A stretch of DNA of 64,000 bases from the NCBI GenBank assembly GCA_000621905.1, contig JHXB01000003.1, forward strand, positions 62,001-126,000, given 5' to 3'. Both the position numbers and the translations under genes were made by a program. The DNA is from Lachnospiraceae bacterium NC2004 (GTDB lineage Bacteria; Bacillota; Clostridia; Lachnospirales; Lachnospiraceae). Below the pieces are notes generated by a model. It had not been told where the DNA came from. It searched no databases and saw nothing but the letters and a program-made list of their open reading frames with translations. Below are positions 2,232 through 10,573 of the stretch, piece after piece. Position 1 is the first letter of the stretch; each line of letters starts with the position of its first letter.

Positions 2232-3185
2232 TTAAATAATCATGCTGAGGTACAAAGCTCCTAAACTCACCATAACCTGAATTATAGCAAATCTTATCAC
2301 AACCTGTGTATTAGACCAACCAAGATTCTTTCTTGCGTGGTCATGAAGCGGAGTTCTTGTATTCTTAAGAATAGATATCTTAAGAAATCGCTTCAAACTA
2401 ACCTTGACAAGTCCTATTCCACCGTCAACAATAATAACTCCGGCAAGTGTAAGATACATAAACGGCATCTTGGTCTGAAGTATTGCTATCGCGATTACCA
2501 ATCCCATCGCTCTTGAACCTGCATCTCCCATAAGCTGTGATGAAGGATTGGCATTAAACCAAAGATACGCAACAAGTGTCGTCATAAAGATTGGTAAAAT
2601 GCTGTTAAATACAGTGCTGTGATCAAGCATCAAAATAGATGTAAGCGTAATAAGAGCAAGGGTTGCAGACAAACTGTCAACTCCGTCTGTACAGTTGGTT
2701 ACGTTAATTGACGCCCAGCAAAGAACCACGATCAAGAATCCATAAAGCGGAACAGGAATCTTGAAACTCACATCCAATATCGCCAATGTAACAATATTGG
2801 AATTAAAGTAGAGATATGTAACCGCTATAAGTAGCGAGATAATAAGGTCTAAGGCGCCTTTTTTATATTCACCCCATGGTACTTTGGCAGCATCATCTAA
2901 GAAACCTGTCATCATACCTAAGAATATAAGCGCAAGATAGATAGAACTCTCCACGCTAACCTTACCAAAAATAAGTGCAATTACTATAAACACCGAAACA
3001 AAAACAATACCAAGACCTCTTGTCTTGCCTCGGGATTTCTCACCGTCAACGGCAAATTCCCTACCCTGATCGGCAGGAAGATACTTATCAAGTCCTTTAG
3101 ATAGCAAAAATGTTAGAAAAAACGCAAACATCGCACCTAAAAACTCAAATATCTTCGAATATTCCATAAAGAAATGCTGTAACAT
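2232..3185 (-). CDS. MraY-like glycosyltransferase family 4 membrane transferase
   Basis: Polytopic membrane protein of ~317 residues in the phospho-sugar polyprenyl-phosphate transferase superfamily (MraY/WecA/TagO). Visible motifs: FLDDAAKV (paired Asp), TNCTDGVDSLS (MraY NxTDGxDxL), GDAGSRAMG, and PLHDHARKNLGW at the place of MraY's PLHHHxE. The HHH triad therefore reads HDH. The start is the ATG at 3185 with GGAGGATATT upstream; the frame is open further upstream but would run into the Nudix gene. It lies 25 bases beyond a Nudix gene and close to a SEDS-PBP fusion, so a role in peptidoglycan precursor or another undecaprenyl-linked polymer is likely. Whether it is the cell's main MraY cannot be decided here. 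Confidence 0.8.
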   Translation of the reverse strand: MLQHFFMEYSKIFEFLGAMFAFFLTFLLSKGLDKYLPADQGREFAVDGEKSRGKTRGLGIVFVSVFIVIALIFGKVSVESSIYLALIFLGMMTGFLDDAAKVPWGEYKKGALDLIISLLIAVTYLYFNSNIVTLAILDVSFKIPVPLYGFLIVVLCWASINVTNCTDGVDSLSATLALITLTSILMLDHSTVFNSILPIFMTTLVAYLWFNANPSSQLMGDAGSRAMGLVIAIAILQTKMPFMYLTLAGVIIVDGGIGLVKVSLKRFLKISILKNTRTPLHDHARKNLGWSNTQVVIRFAIIQVMVSLGALYLSMII

Positions 3186-3210
3186 AATATCCTCCGTTAA
3201 AAAAGCAGGA

Positions 3211-3684
3211 CTACTCCTGCTCTTTTTTAATATAATTTCTGTGATTCTCGATCCATAATCCCTTCTTACGAAGCTGATGATATCTCTCATAAGCATCTTC
3301 TAAAATCTGCTTCTCATTAGCAAACCTTAGCAAATGATAGGCTTCATGGAACTTGTAAAATCCGGAATCCACAAAGTATTCTTCTCTCTGCGGCTTGCTA
3401 TAATAGCTCTCGCCCATCATAAGATACCAATAAACCTGCTTATCAATAAGCTCATCTCCGGCTCTAAAGGTATATTCACTTGTGCCAATGTAACTCTTGA
3501 TAGTTCCTACGGCACCCGTCTCTTCTTTAACCTCTCTTAGAGCAGTCTCCTCATGTGTCTCGCCTTCTTCAACTGTTCCTTTGGGTAACACCCAGCCATC
3601 GTACCTGTTCTTATAATTCTTGTACAATAATAAAATCTTGCCTCTGAATATTACCACACCACCACAGCTAGTTGCTTCTGCCAT
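3211..3684 (-). CDS. Nudix hydrolase
   Basis: 157 residues. A complete Nudix box (G-x5-E-x7-REV-x-EE-x-G) is seen from GTVEEGETHEE through REVKEETGA, after GWVLPKG. Family members cleave nucleoside diphosphates linked to another group; the small size and WVLPKGxxE lead resemble Ap4A hydrolase / RNA pyrophosphohydrolase types, but the substrate cannot be assigned. Start ATG at 3684 has CAGGAGGG upstream. It sits between the SEDS-PBP fusion and the MraY-like transferase on the same strand, so it may be transcribed with cell-wall genes. Confidence 0.88.
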   Translation of the reverse strand: MAEATSCGGVVIFRGKILLLYKNYKNRYDGWVLPKGTVEEGETHEETALREVKEETGAVGTIKSYIGTSEYTFRAGDELIDKQVYWYLMMGESYYSKPQREEYFVDSGFYKFHEAYHLLRFANEKQILEDAYERYHQLRKKGLWIENHRNYIKKEQE

Positions 3685-3783: not shown

Positions 3784-6753
3784 TCATTTATGTTTATTAT
3801 AATATGCATTAAATACACTCTTTGCGATAGGAACAGCAGTCCCGCTTCCTGATCCTCCGTTCTCAACAAGAACAGATATCGCAATGTCAGGATCTTCAAG
3901 ATTAGAATATCCGACAAACCAAGCGTGAGTGTTGTCTCCATGGCCGGTCTCTGCAGTACCGGTCTTGCCTGCATATGTATGCTTCAACCCGCTTAACGCC
4001 GAAGCTGTACCATTATCTACAACTCCTTTAAGAAGCTTCTCCATAATGTATGCCTGATCTTTGGTCATAACCTCTCCATACTCCTCAGGTGAAAACTCCT
4101 TAATTACCCTATTGTCATAACTCTCTATACTGTCAATCAGATAAGGCTTCATCATAACGCCATCATTTGCAATAGCAGCAATAATCATAGCATTAAGTAA
4201 AGGTGTACACAAAGTATCGCCCTGACCAAATGATGTCTGCGGTATATCAGATTTAGGCGAAGAACTTTTAAGTTCAAACCTGCTCTTTGAGTATTCAAAT
4301 GAAATCGGCAGCTCAGAGTTATAAAGAAGCGAATTCGCCGTCTTTCTGTATGACGAAACATCGAGTTTCATACCTATATCAACAAATGCATTGTTGCAGG
4401 AATTAGCCATCGCCTGAGCAAGATTCTGAACTCCATGCACATGGTTACTTGAGCATCTCACCCTAACTCCCTGAACTATCGAAGAACCCTGACAATTGTA
4501 TGAATACTTCTTCCATTTCTTAGGATTCTCCTTGATATATTCAAGGGCTGTCACAATCTTAAAGGTAGAACCAGGCGGATAAAGTCCCCTGCTCGCCCTG
4601 TTTAACAGTGCAGAATCATCCACTTTATTGAGTTCATCCCACACACCTTCTATGTAGTTAGGATTGTAGTCAGGCTTACTTACCATAGCTAGGATTCGAC
4701 CTGTATCAGGCTCAATAACAACAACCGCACCCTTATTCTCGCCAAGCGCATCAGACGCAGCCTTCTGCAATGTGTAATCAAGAGTGGTATAACAGTCGTC
4801 ACCCCTGTTCTTCTTATCACGAAGGTCGTTACCAATCTTTTCTAAAATTCCCGCGTGCGAGGTATAAAGATAATAGTTAGCACTCGCCTCTAATCCCGCC
4901 TTACCGTTGATATCATAACCTACAGCCTGCGCAAATAGATTGTCGTAAGGGTAATTTCTGACATACGAACCGTTAGCTTTAACGGATTTAGCAACCTTCT
5001 TGCCATCTGATGTGATAATAGAACCCTTTATAATCTTGTCCTTGTATATATCTTTTCTTGGATTGTATGAACTTGCCAAGTCAACCCTTGAAGGGACGGC
5101 AACATAGTAGGAAATGTAACCCATAAGTCCCATAAACAGGAATACAAATACATACGCAGTAAGAGTAACCTGTCTGTTAATCTTAAGTCGCTTGGAAGTA
5201 CGCACCATACTGTTAAGAATCCTGTATGCAAGTCCATGCTCCTTACCCTTAGTCTCAGGCTCTGTTTCTTGGATTACTTCGGGAATCTGATTGTAAATGT
5301 CACCGGTATTAAGCGATACAGCACCGCCTGATACCTCATCCGGAATTACAATTCCTTCAACATCCCTATCTTTCTTTCGTTTCCTTCTGACATTTTTAAT
5401 GTCCTCAATCGTTACATCAGCTTCCTCTTCTAAGGCTTCTTCTTTCTCTCTCTCCTTTTGGCTTATCATCAAAAGTCCCTGAACTGTACCAAAAAGAAGC
5501 ATTACACTTGCAACACTACTTCTACCGTAGCTGATCAAAGGAAGTGTAACTCCTGTAAGCGGAATGAACTTAACGGCACCGCCGACATTTAAGAACACCT
5601 GGAATATAAAGCACACACCCATTCCAAGTGCAATAAGCTTATAAAGTGGTCTTGTAGCCTTAATTGCAGCATTTAAAAACATTACAAAGCATGCCAAGAA
5701 TATAAGCAATATACAAAGAACGAATATAGTTCCAAACTCCTCTGCAATCGCTGACAATATAAAGTCGGAATAAACTACAGGAATCGCGTCAACCTTACCC
5801 TCTCCAAGTCCGACTCCAAACCAGTTACCTGTACCAAATGCAAAAAGCGACTGGCATATCTGATAACCCGGGCCATCAATTACAGCCCAAGGATCCTTAA
5901 ATGCAATAACACGATTCTGAACATGAGTAAAAAACTTATACGCAATAACAGATGCAAATGCTCCGCCCAAAAGCCCGCTAACCAATAACGTTAGTCTTCC
6001 TGTAGCAACATAGAGCATAATAAGATATGTCACAAAGAATATCAAAGCAGCTCCAAGATCCCTTTCAAGAACAAGTACAATTACATACGAAGCCGCAATT
6101 GCTGTGGTTATAACAAGACTCTTAAGATCCTGAATCTTAGCAAGTCTGCACGCCACAAAAAGAACGAATATTAATTTGACAAATTCAGACGGCTGCAAGG
6201 TAATCCCATGAATTGAAATCCAGTTGGTAGCACCGTACTCGTCTACTCCCCATACAGCAACCGTTGCAAGCAAGAAGAATCCACCGATTCCATATATCCA
6301 TGTAAGTCTTCTCCATATAGGAAATGCTTTCATGAGAAAAGGAATAACCATCGCACCAAAGAAACAGAAAACCAATGTCATAAACTGCTTTAAAGCATAA
6401 TCTTCAAATGACATTCTTGTAAGCATAACAAGTCCGACAGTCATAAAAAAGAGCATATTGTTCATCAGAACTCTTGATGTACCCTTTAATATCCTGTGGT
6501 ATAAAATCATGGAGAACAATAAAAACAACAACTGTGCCCCATAAAAATATACATACTTAACCTCGCCTTTTTGAATAATGATATCTAAATTAGAGAAGAA
6601 ATGGAACAAAAGAAGAACCCTGTTCTGCTTAAAGAACAGCTTCTTACTTCTCCTCTTAGACTCATTACCTATAAGCTGAAAACAGGTAAGTGTATAAATC
6701 GCCACTAAGATAATATTCAAATATGATGTCAATACTAAAATAATATGTGCCAT
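3784..6753 (-). CDS. Single-chain SEDS (FtsW/RodA) polymerase fused to class B PBP transpeptidase
   Basis: 989 residues combining both halves of a septal or elongasome peptidoglycan synthase. Residues ~1-430 are a multi-pass SEDS domain with ERDLG (~230), the conserved YSDF Asp (~330, the putative catalytic Asp) and PLISYGRSS (~405). Residues ~435-515 are a charged cytoplasmic linker. A further membrane helix (~527-550) leads to a penicillin-binding transpeptidase with SxxK (STFK, Ser729), SxN (SCN, 785-787) and KTG (930-932). A stretch GSIITSDGK at ~577 matches the class B N-terminal box. Both active sites look intact. Start ATG at 6753 has AGGAGATATT upstream. Usually the two enzymes are separate, paired proteins. 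Here they are made one-to-one, between a U32 gene and the Nudix/MraY-like pair. Confidence 0.95.
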   Translation of the reverse strand: MAHIILVLTSYLNIILVAIYTLTCFQLIGNESKRRSKKLFFKQNRVLLLFHFFSNLDIIIQKGEVKYVYFYGAQLLFLLFSMILYHRILKGTSRVLMNNMLFFMTVGLVMLTRMSFEDYALKQFMTLVFCFFGAMVIPFLMKAFPIWRRLTWIYGIGGFFLLATVAVWGVDEYGATNWISIHGITLQPSEFVKLIFVLFVACRLAKIQDLKSLVITTAIAASYVIVLVLERDLGAALIFFVTYLIMLYVATGRLTLLVSGLLGGAFASVIAYKFFTHVQNRVIAFKDPWAVIDGPGYQICQSLFAFGTGNWFGVGLGEGKVDAIPVVYSDFILSAIAEEFGTIFVLCILLIFLACFVMFLNAAIKATRPLYKLIALGMGVCFIFQVFLNVGGAVKFIPLTGVTLPLISYGRSSVASVMLLFGTVQGLLMISQKEREKEEALEEEADVTIEDIKNVRRKRKKDRDVEGIVIPDEVSGGAVSLNTGDIYNQIPEVIQETEPETKGKEHGLAYRILNSMVRTSKRLKINRQVTLTAYVFVFLFMGLMGYISYYVAVPSRVDLASSYNPRKDIYKDKIIKGSIITSDGKKVAKSVKANGSYVRNYPYDNLFAQAVGYDINGKAGLEASANYYLYTSHAGILEKIGNDLRDKKNRGDDCYTTLDYTLQKAASDALGENKGAVVVIEPDTGRILAMVSKPDYNPNYIEGVWDELNKVDDSALLNRASRGLYPPGSTFKIVTALEYIKENPKKWKKYSYNCQGSSIVQGVRVRCSSNHVHGVQNLAQAMANSCNNAFVDIGMKLDVSSYRKTANSLLYNSELPISFEYSKSRFELKSSSPKSDIPQTSFGQGDTLCTPLLNAMIIAAIANDGVMMKPYLIDSIESYDNRVIKEFSPEEYGEVMTKDQAYIMEKLLKGVVDNGTASALSGLKHTYAGKTGTAETGHGDNTHAWFVGYSNLEDPDIAISVLVENGGSGSGTAVPIAKSVFNAYYNKHK

Positions 6754-6761
6754 AATATCTC

Positions 6762-9098
6762 CTAGTCTACTTGCTGGTATCTGTGTCCAAAGTTAACCTT
6801 AACCTTCACCTCATCATTTAATGCGTCAAGCGACTCTATGGTATCCTCGTCCGTAAGTCTTATCATATAACCGCTCGCTGAAACATTTGCCGAATAATCA
6901 TCTTTTGAAAGAACTGTAGGAATATCACTGTATATGACATTTCTTCTTCCAAATGAATTACAGTAAAAGCAATCACTTAAAACCTTAAGTTCCTTGCCTT
7001 TTCTATCGGTTATGGTAGTGTAGTCAGCCTGCTTATTGCAACACTCCATGTTCTTCTTAACACAAAGGTTAGTTGTCATAAGACGCTGCTTCTCGTATAT
7101 AGTCATTATATACGGTCTGTCAACTTTAGCTAACTCATTGATTGTAAGCTCAACCGGCGCAACGATGCCGGTGACTCTTATGCCTTTATCTTCACAAACA
7201 GATATAAGCTTATCGTAAGCAATGCTGTTAAATGCATACAGAGTGTCGTCAATAACTATATCTTTATTAAAGCCTTTATCAAATATCCACCCTAACGAAT
7301 CAAGAGAAGGAATCATAAAGCCTTTAGCTTTATTTAAAGTGTTGATTCCATTTTCAAATATTCCGATATTACCTTCCCTAAACATGTGAGGAAATGCGAT
7401 ATAAATATCGTTAAATTCTGTCTTATACTCTTTATCTAAAGATACAGCCAAAGAGTAAGGAACTACAATAAATGTATCGTCAGCGGTGTAATTCTTGGCA
7501 AGTTCAAACTGATTATAATCACTGACATAAATATAATTCTGGTTTAGATTAACGGATTTAGGATTAGAAACACCCTCCGTCTCTACAATCTCTCTTAAAT
7601 ACTTTTTAGTCGTTACCTCTTCAAGCTCTGATATCGCATTTCTTCTCAATTCATTAATTGCTCCGACAGGAATAAATGCGTCATCTGATATATCTACATT
7701 TATGTTCTTGATATAATACTCCGTACCTCCAAGCTTATTAAAAGCCTTGCTGACCGTATTAATATCAACCGGCGCTTTTATTGCCTTATCAACTACAGTT
7801 TCAGAATAATACTTAGTCTCAACAAGATTAGATAGATTTCTAATGTTAATTACTACCCTCTCGCCTGTCTTGATATCAATATCTAATTCAAGAGGAATCT
7901 TATTGTATTCTTTGTCGCCGGTCTCCATAAGAGTCATACTTTCACTCTTCATCCTATAAAGACTGATGCCGGTTTTAAGTGTCTTAACCTTAGGGCAGTT
8001 AAGACCAACCATACCACCCTTCTTATAGTCGCTAGGCGAAGTAAGAACTATATCGATGTCTTTGTCCTTATCTCTTAACTCAATAATATCGCCTTTATAT
8101 ATATTCTTTAAGGCTTTAAAACTTATACTTCCTTTGCCAAGAGATGCTATATCTCCAATGTGAACACCTTCATGATTAGGTCTCTTCATGCTCATCATGC
8201 ATTTGTCTAAATCACTGAAAAGATATCCTTTATTAAAGCCTCCGCGATTAAACACCTGCTTTAATCTGTCAATGTCCTCATTAAGCTCGCGCTCACTAAC
8301 ATCCTGCCCGACCATATCTATATGTCTTCTGTAAACAGATGTCACAACACCAACATAATCAGGACTCTTCATCCTGCCCTCTATCTTAAGCGAATCAACC
8401 TGAAGCCTTATTATGTCATCAATAAGCCCCAAACCGCACATATCTTTAGGTGAAAATATATGAGTGTCATTATCAAATACATTATATTTAAGCCTGCAAC
8501 TCTGCGCACAACGCCCTCTGTTACCGCTTCTTCCACCTACAGAACTGCTGAGTAAACATTGTCCCGAATAACCGTAACAAAGCGCTCCATGAACAAACAT
8601 CTCTATCTCAACATCGGTAGCCTCTCTTATACTCTTTACTTCTTCATAATTAAGCTCGCGGGCTAACACTATTCTGTCTGCGCCTTCATTTGCCATAAGT
8701 TTAGCACCATATGAAGACATCACGCCCATCTGGGTGCTGACATGAATAGGAAGATTAGGAAAATGCTTGCGGATAAAGTGAAACACGCCCAAGTCCTGAA
8801 CAATCACCGCATCTAGTCCGTGAACATAAAAAGGAAGGAGGTAATCATAAAGCTCACGCTCAATCTCCTCCTCCTTAAGAAGTGTATTAACCGTCAAATG
8901 AAGTGCTAACCCTCTGTTATGCATATAATCAATTGCATGCAGCAGGGTATCTTTATCAAAATTGTCTGCATACGCCCTTGCGCCGAATCTGTTACCGCCC
9001 ACATAAACTGCGTCACATCCGGACTTAACGGCGCTTTTCAATGCGTCAAATGAACCCGCCGGCGAAAGTAACTCCGGCTTCTTAAAACCATTATCCAT
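6762..9098 (-). CDS. Peptidase U32-family protein with C-terminal extension (RlhA-like rRNA hydroxylase)
   Basis: 778 residues. The N-terminal half is a U32 barrel with MFVHGALCYGYSGQC and the signature RSGNRGRCAQSCR. The second half matches in length and place the DUF3656-type extension of E. coli RlhA, which makes 5-hydroxycytidine at 23S rRNA C2501. Shorter U32 proteins (TrhP) act on tRNA and older annotations say collagenase. From size and architecture I favour the rRNA-modifying type, but the substrate is inferred. Several Cys near residues 170-205 and 690-715 could hold an iron-sulfur cluster. The start at 9098 has TAGGAG upstream. It is eight bases upstream of the SEDS-PBP gene, thus co-transcribed. 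Confidence 0.85.
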   Translation of the reverse strand: MDNGFKKPELLSPAGSFDALKSAVKSGCDAVYVGGNRFGARAYADNFDKDTLLHAIDYMHNRGLALHLTVNTLLKEEEIERELYDYLLPFYVHGLDAVIVQDLGVFHFIRKHFPNLPIHVSTQMGVMSSYGAKLMANEGADRIVLARELNYEEVKSIREATDVEIEMFVHGALCYGYSGQCLLSSSVGGRSGNRGRCAQSCRLKYNVFDNDTHIFSPKDMCGLGLIDDIIRLQVDSLKIEGRMKSPDYVGVVTSVYRRHIDMVGQDVSERELNEDIDRLKQVFNRGGFNKGYLFSDLDKCMMSMKRPNHEGVHIGDIASLGKGSISFKALKNIYKGDIIELRDKDKDIDIVLTSPSDYKKGGMVGLNCPKVKTLKTGISLYRMKSESMTLMETGDKEYNKIPLELDIDIKTGERVVINIRNLSNLVETKYYSETVVDKAIKAPVDINTVSKAFNKLGGTEYYIKNINVDISDDAFIPVGAINELRRNAISELEEVTTKKYLREIVETEGVSNPKSVNLNQNYIYVSDYNQFELAKNYTADDTFIVVPYSLAVSLDKEYKTEFNDIYIAFPHMFREGNIGIFENGINTLNKAKGFMIPSLDSLGWIFDKGFNKDIVIDDTLYAFNSIAYDKLISVCEDKGIRVTGIVAPVELTINELAKVDRPYIMTIYEKQRLMTTNLCVKKNMECCNKQADYTTITDRKGKELKVLSDCFYCNSFGRRNVIYSDIPTVLSKDDYSANVSASGYMIRLTDEDTIESLDALNDEVKVKVNFGHRYQQVD

Positions 9099-9113: not shown

Positions 9114-9563
9114 TTACTTCTTAGCAGGATCCTTAGTTGAAAGCGAAGAAGCAGACTTGGTCTTGCTTCCCTTAGATGCCTCAAGCTCTAAGACTCTTGA
9201 CTGTGTCTCCATCAACTGATGCTTGTATTCCTCCTGCATCTTAAGCGCAGACTCATACTTAATCTTAGTCTCAATCTGCTCATGCTGTATATCGTAATTG
9301 GTCTTCTCTAACTTCTTGACCTCTTCCTCTAACTTATCTACCTTGTCCTTAGCCTTAAAATAATCGTCGGCAATGTTAAGATTAAGAAGCAATGACTTAT
9401 CATCACCAGAAAGGCGGTTATAATACTCGCTCATCCTGATTTCTGAAATCTTATTGTTGACATAAAGTGCAACTTTCTGCATGTACTCTAAACTCTCTTC
9501 AGCAGAAACATTAACTACCTTGCCATCGATTATAACCTGACCATCTTTCTTGTTATTAATCAT
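9114..9563 (-). CDS. zapA: Cell division protein ZapA
   Basis: About 149 residues. The N-terminal globular part (INNKKDGQVIIDGKVVNVSA, then YMQKVALYVNNKI) matches the ZapA head, and residues ~75-130 form a long coiled coil (KAKDKVDKLEEEVKKLEK). ZapA bundles FtsZ filaments at midcell. The start is the ATG at 9563: GAGGAG lies eight bases before it, formed by the last two codons of ruvB. A GTG at 9572 would have no spacing. The C-terminal Ser/Lys tail (KGSKTKSASS) is an extension beyond typical ~90-residue ZapA. Presence next to the SEDS-PBP gene ties this operon to division. Confidence 0.88.
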   Translation of the reverse strand: MINNKKDGQVIIDGKVVNVSAEESLEYMQKVALYVNNKISEIRMSEYYNRLSGDDKSLLLNLNIADDYFKAKDKVDKLEEEVKKLEKTNYDIQHEQIETKIKYESALKMQEEYKHQLMETQSRVLELEASKGSKTKSASSLSTKDPAKK

Positions 9564-9568
9564 CTTGT

Positions 9569-10573
9569 TCACTCCTCGTATAAATCTATTAATCCCAAAT
9601 GTTCGTAAGCAGCCTTGGTTACTACTCTTCCCTTAGGCGTACGAACAATCAATCCTCTCTGCAATAAAAACGGCTCATATACATCTTCGATAGTCGATGC
9701 ATCTTCACCGATTGACGATGCAAGTGTATCAAGACCTACCGGTCCGCCCGCAAACTTGTCGATAATGCTACGAAGCATATTCTGATCGGTTGTATCAAGC
9801 CCCATGCTGTCAACCTTAAGCATATCAAGGGCATCACTTACAACCTCCTTAGTTATAACTCCGTCGTAACTTACTACCGCAAAATCCCTGACTCTCTTAA
9901 GAAGTCTGTTGGCAAGTCTAGGCGTTCCTCTTGATCTCATTGCAAGCATCTTAGCACCGCTGGCATCTATTGGAACATTAAGCTTATCTGCACTGTTAAT
10001 AATAATCTCCATAAGCTCGTCATCCTCATAGAATTCAAGCTTATCAACAACTCCAAACCTGTCTCTTAAAGGAGCTGAAAGCATACCCGCTCTTGTTGTA
10101 GCACCAACTAACGTAAACTTAGGCAGATTAAGTCTTATAGACTTGGCCATAGGTCCCTTGCCAATCATAACATCAATGGCATAATCCTCCATAGCCGGAT
10201 AAAGAACCTCTTCCACCTGTCTGTTAAGCCTGTGTATCTCGTCGATAAAGAGTACATCCTTCTCCTCTAAGCCATTTAAAATCGCAGCAAGTTCTCCTGG
10301 CTTCTCTATAGCGGGCCCTGATGTAATCTTAATCTTTGAACCCATTTCATTGGCAATAATACTTGCCAGTGTGGTCTTACCAAGTCCCGGAGGTCCATAT
10401 AGTAAAATGTGATCAAGCGCTTCTTCTCTCTGCTTAGCAGACTCAATATAAACATTTAAGTTACTCTTTATGCGTTCCTGGCCTATATAGTCCTTAAGCC
10501 TCTTGGGCCTTAGGTCGCTCTCTATAACTATATCTTCATTGTCATCAAATTCAGTGTTAAGAATCCTACCCAA
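9569..10573 (-). CDS. ruvB: Holliday junction branch migration ATPase RuvB
   Basis: 334 residues, full length for RuvB. It drives branch migration with RuvA. Visible: [12 protein letters not shown] near the N-terminus, Walker [10 protein letters not shown], Walker [10 protein letters not shown], sensor region [18 protein letters not shown], and the C-terminal winged-helix ([16 protein letters not shown]). The start is a TTG at 10573 with GGAGG nine bases upstream; no ATG fits. The stop overlaps the ribosome binding site of zapA. Directly follows ruvA. Confidence 0.97.

Follow-up and report, generated by a model that had tools for sequence, protein, structure and literature searches.

SEDS polymerases and the class B PBPs that act as crosslinkers are normally separate partner proteins. 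How, then, can a single open reading frame of a Lachnospiraceae genome carry both, is such a gene real, and where does it come from? These questions are raised by a locus in the window analysed here, a stretch of 64,000 nucleotides from Lachnospiraceae bacterium NC2004 (contig JHXB01000003.1, positions 62,001 to 126,000), for which an earlier note, made from the letters, proposed that both enzymes are joined in one polypeptide.

Domains and active sites of the fused chain

Positions 3784-6753 of the minus strand form one unbroken open reading frame of 989 aa, whose ATG lies at 6753 and whose stop codon ends at 3784, and Pfam domains for both halves are found in it (Table 1). The proposal is thus confirmed: a SEDS glycosyltransferase and a class B PBP are encoded in a single chain, and this is a real gene fusion. 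The start codon is preceded by a Shine-Dalgarno site (TAGGAGATATTATG, -7.3 kcal/mol). All three domain scores exceed their Pfam cut-offs (26.4 bits for SEDS, 27 for PBP_dimer_2 and 22.1 for Transpeptidase). In the SEDS half, Asp330 stands in the large extracellular loop and aligns with the catalytic Asp of the FtsW/RodA HTDF motif. The C-terminal half has a transpeptidase domain with the SxxK, SxN and KTG motifs and no GT51 domain, as a class B PBP does, and PBP_dimer_2 together with the alignment to PbpA makes it one of the PbpA type. The residue numbers predicted for both active sites (Asp330; Ser729-Lys732; Ser785-Asn787; Lys930-Gly932) proved exact.

It is to be noted that the chain begins with an N-terminal extension, with hydropathy maxima at residues 4-22 and 67-85, which the split relatives described below also carry. 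A linker before the PBP helix had been foreseen at about 80 residues; it is indeed present, but about 97 residues separate the final SEDS helix from the PBP helix. An AlphaFold run with two sequences gave a pLDDT of 34 and was unusable.

Table 1. Features of the fusion gene and its neighbours, in positions of the window
Feature	Position	Strand	Evidence or remark
Divergent MraY, true start probably an inner ATG	2232..3296	-	TIGR00445 91 of 192 bits
NUDIX hydrolase, conserved downstream neighbour	3211..3684	-	also in L055, L056, L057, L052
SEDS-PBP fusion gene, 989 aa	3784..6753	-	one open frame; Pfam domains; active-site residues
Transpeptidase domain, residues 675-981; STFK 729-732, SCN 785-787, KTG 930-932	3811..4731	-	PF00905 178.7 bits; aligns with PbpA of M. 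tuberculosis, among others
PbpA-type dimerisation domain (PBP_dimer_2), residues 577-652	4798..5025	-	PF21922 41.5 bits
PBP transmembrane helix, about residues 528-550	5104..5172	-	hydropathy
Hydrophilic linker, residues 431-527, presumably cytoplasmic; SEDS C-tail and PBP N-tail	5173..5463	-	hydropathy; dN/dS 0.20 against G202
Met516, sole in-frame ATG of the linker; weak Shine-Dalgarno	5206..5208	-	start-site scoring
SEDS (FTSW_RODA_SPOVE) glycosyltransferase domain, residues 100-426	5476..6456	-	PF01098 212.6 bits
Catalytic Asp330 codon (SDF motif)	5764..5766	-	alignment with HTDF Asp of solved FtsW/RodA chains
N-terminal extension, residues 1-90, two hydrophobic helices preceding the SEDS Pfam domain	6484..6753	-	hydropathy
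U32 family protein (TrhP-like), conserved upstream neighbour	6762..9098	-	profile match
ZapA cell-division protein, upstream of the fusion	9114..9572	-	PF05164 56.9 bits

A third synthase and its neighbourhood

To which of the known synthases does the fused chain belong? The earlier note had framed it by FtsW-PBP3 and RodA-PBP2 and advised looking for separate genes of these kinds. Both pairs are present: the dcw cluster encodes an FtsI/SpoVD-like PBP and an FtsW-like SEDS protein, and the mre cluster a PBP2-like protein and RodA. The genome has three SEDS genes in total, and also two class A PBPs and one DacA-type carboxypeptidase. As a side observation, the PBP2-like protein encoded at locus L076 (7119-10025) is unusually long, with 968 aa, and matches its profile in several stretches. 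The framing holds insofar as a SEDS protein and a class B PBP are joined, but the fusion belongs to neither pair. It has no PF03717 (PBP_dimer), and its equivalog scores stay below the cut-offs (mrdA 272 of 455 bits, ftsW 227 of 337.5, rodA 188 of 336.7), as do those of the genome's other two pairs, which yet carry PF03717. Since the FtsW/FtsI-like and RodA/PBP2 pairs are encoded elsewhere, the fusion is, judged from these matches, the third synthase of the genome, and one of the PbpA type. The PBP half matches mycobacterial PbpA structure chains (3un7, 147 bits) as well as the PbpA dimerisation domain; mycobacterial RodA and PbpA, however, are two proteins, and lie in a different gene neighbourhood from the NC2004 fusion.

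All four intact fusions found in the family share the locus ruvA-ruvB-zapA-U32-(SEDS-PBP)-NUDIX, the genes of the other genera being assigned by resemblance of translated open reading frames. From the nearby zapA, the cellular role of the fusion is perhaps in division. Past the NUDIX gene, downstream of the fusion, lies a divergent MraY, and the genome encodes no other PF00953 protein; the dcw cluster is without mraY, the gene being placed outside it, and the congener G200 is arranged alike (L052, 7667-8635). The genome gives no match to SpoIVA at cut-off, which suggests, without proving it, a non-sporulating species; a Spo0A-type protein is present.

Repeated origin in Lachnospiraceae

The same fusion was to be sought in related genomes, and it is found intact in three other genera. 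Among 200 Lachnospiraceae genomes, at least 180 have the SEDS/PBP pair or a fusion at E <= 1e-40, and at least four, among the matches listed, have both domains in one uninterrupted frame (NC2004 itself, G127, G045 and G073), as is also the case in Rhodococcus; the matches were ranked by score with full-length fusions first, and very divergent fusions could escape. The linkers of the four are 87-113 residues long and share no obvious sequence similarity. Four other full-length matches, G182 and G120 in the family sample and G349 and G480 in an order sample, are not fusions, because stop codons part their in-frame genes. Split pairs with the PBP in the SEDS frame and one or two stop codons between were observed at L015, L066, L060 and L013. 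Nearly all split pairs examined are offset by +1 in frame, and most overlap.

Did fusion occur once or repeatedly? On a joint tree of both halves the fusion state needs four changes, forced by well-supported branches; if the long branch of G073 is left out, the SEDS tree and the PBP tree each need three. A single clade of NC2004, its congener G202 and G127 is rejected (AU test, p-AU 8.9e-6). These trees would require genes to have fused independently at least three or four times in the family, and the fusion of NC2004 appears to have arisen recently, within its genus. In principle the genes could have fused once, early, and split many times since, but at the cost of many more changes.

A probable route from overlapping genes to one chain

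The genus sample of five genomes (NC2004, G200, G201, G202 and G203) holds fused and split forms side by side. G200, G201 and G203 have pairs orthologous to the NC2004 fusion (SEDS 66-69%, PBP 60-62% identity), that of G200 with the same neighbours. In contrast to NC2004, each pair consists of two genes with overlapping ends, in which the PBP gene is offset by +1 and has its own start within the SEDS tail, with Shine-Dalgarno matches of -8.3, -5.9 and -14.5 kcal/mol, respectively. The fused gene has no counterpart of this start; only Met516/Val517 are left, with a weak site (-4.1).

With a probability of roughly 0.85, we consider that the fusion is real, that it arose recently within the genus, and that one membrane protein provides both halves of a third SEDS-class B PBP synthase. 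Its ancestor would have been two adjoining genes with overlapping ends and frames offset by +1; an indel may then have joined the frames, and the separate start of the PBP would have disappeared. The SEDS half is supposed to polymerise lipid II and the PBP half to crosslink the strand, as in separate pairs. From what is known of the families, the linker would tie two ends both expected in the cytoplasm, so that the usual topology is kept. This cytoplasmic linker of about 97 residues would mainly secure 1:1 production and proximity of the partners and would add no new reaction. The earlier note went further, in that one chain forces a 1:1 complex: the covalent link does fix 1:1 synthesis, while pairing within a chain rather than between chains is only inferred.

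Does the joining itself matter? It might be that the fusion, though real, is a neutral accident which leaves function unchanged and is tolerated since the pair is always made together, a reading which is compatible with our preferred one apart from this point and to which we give nearly an even chance. Indeed, the fusions are scattered and rare (at least 4 of 200 family genomes) and have split sisters, and overlapping genes join through small changes. The join, however, recurs at one locus, and its linkers keep to a narrow range of length, even if drift and topology could explain both. It seems unlikely, on the other hand, that selection has repeatedly made the join at the zapA-NUDIX locus to give a dedicated third synthase, perhaps a vegetative division enzyme, in which the linker sets the coupling of SEDS and PBP.

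Another possibility is that the gene is fused and its products work as separate enzymes, the PBP being freed by internal initiation at Met516 or by cleavage of the linker. This codon is the sole in-frame ATG of the linker, is conserved in G202 and stands just before the PBP helix, and the linker is hydrophilic and fast-evolving. Its Shine-Dalgarno site is nevertheless weak, with -4.1 kcal/mol where the fusion start has -7.3 and the PBP starts of the congeners reach -14.5, and we regard such a separation as doubtful.

Both enzymes in one translated frame, the preferred reading, are supported by the fourth congener. A scan of genome contigs found L004, which is G202, as the sole relative. G202 (CAMVPR010000022.1) is 93% identical to NC2004 across the SEDS part and has no SEDS stop; its linker runs in frame as far as the contig end at residue 510, and the PBP resumes one base further on, at the start of another contig. 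The two contigs, C22 (end of L050) and C70 (start of L051), do not overlap, and a gap of one base within the linker parts them; this unread base, at residue 511, is covered by no other G202 contig, and joining the contigs without it would shift the frame. Between NC2004, whose assembly consists of 56 contigs, and G202, dN/dS is 0.02 for the SEDS part, 0.20 for the linker (0.07 in its SEDS-tail and 0.40 in its PBP-tail part) and 0.03 for the PBP, and third codon positions hold 32 of the 66 linker differences. From the value across the linker, the linker appears to be translated in both genomes. The loss of a stop codon between residues 430 and 520 by sequencing error, which would have undone the fusion, is contradicted by G202, whose linker is free of stops despite the contig break, and a sequencing error as the cause of the fusion is very unlikely. 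Although one false indel could suffice to merge genes like those of the congeners, which overlap with a frame offset of +1, and although G202 is itself split over two contigs, an assembly or sequencing artefact is hardly credible, as G202 keeps the same frame, with the substitution pattern given above, through the SEDS part and nearly the whole linker, the ancestral PBP start is absent from both genomes, and three other genera have intact fusions.

Natural and engineered fusions

SEDS-PBP fusions as a kind are already known: single open reading frames encoding them exist, with the genome of Rhodococcus RHA1 cited as an example (PMC10449877). Three Rhodococcus plasmid records have a fusion in a single CDS, one of which is WP_109336180.1 on pRB29. 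Like that of NC2004, it reads SEDS first and then class B PBP; unlike it, the Rhodococcus fusion is plasmid-borne, comes from an actinomycete and shows 28.5% identity over the matched part, whereas the NC2004 fusion occupies a chromosomal-type locus conserved across Lachnospiraceae and has split sister species. For both E. coli RodA-PBP2 and B. subtilis SpoVE-SpoVD, fusions made by engineering are reported to be functional, so that the join is compatible with activity (PMC10449877). The E. coli construct, like the NC2004 fusion, is one chain with SEDS first, and it is reported to be a functional synthase (PMC10449877), but it is man-made and of PBP2 type, while that of NC2004 is natural and of PbpA type.

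The new element is that the fusion has arisen recently and more than once, beside sister species in which the genes are split; a literature search found no report of a Lachnospiraceae fusion or of its recurrence, though one may have been published. A single genus that holds the same orthologous pair in fused and in split form provides a natural comparison set for the coupling of polymerisation and crosslinking. Together with the several independent joins at this locus, it allows a direct comparison of how a covalent link affects activity, stoichiometry and the response to beta-lactams.

Viral contigs were scanned once as well and yielded no relative. Long matches also came from records grouped as phages, of which the best, MT835478.1 (L041, 2983-5791), is a split pair and not a fusion; labelled 'Bacteriophage sp.', this record is an unannotated faecal contig with a Lachnospiraceae-like SEDS/PBP pair, and is probably bacterial DNA.
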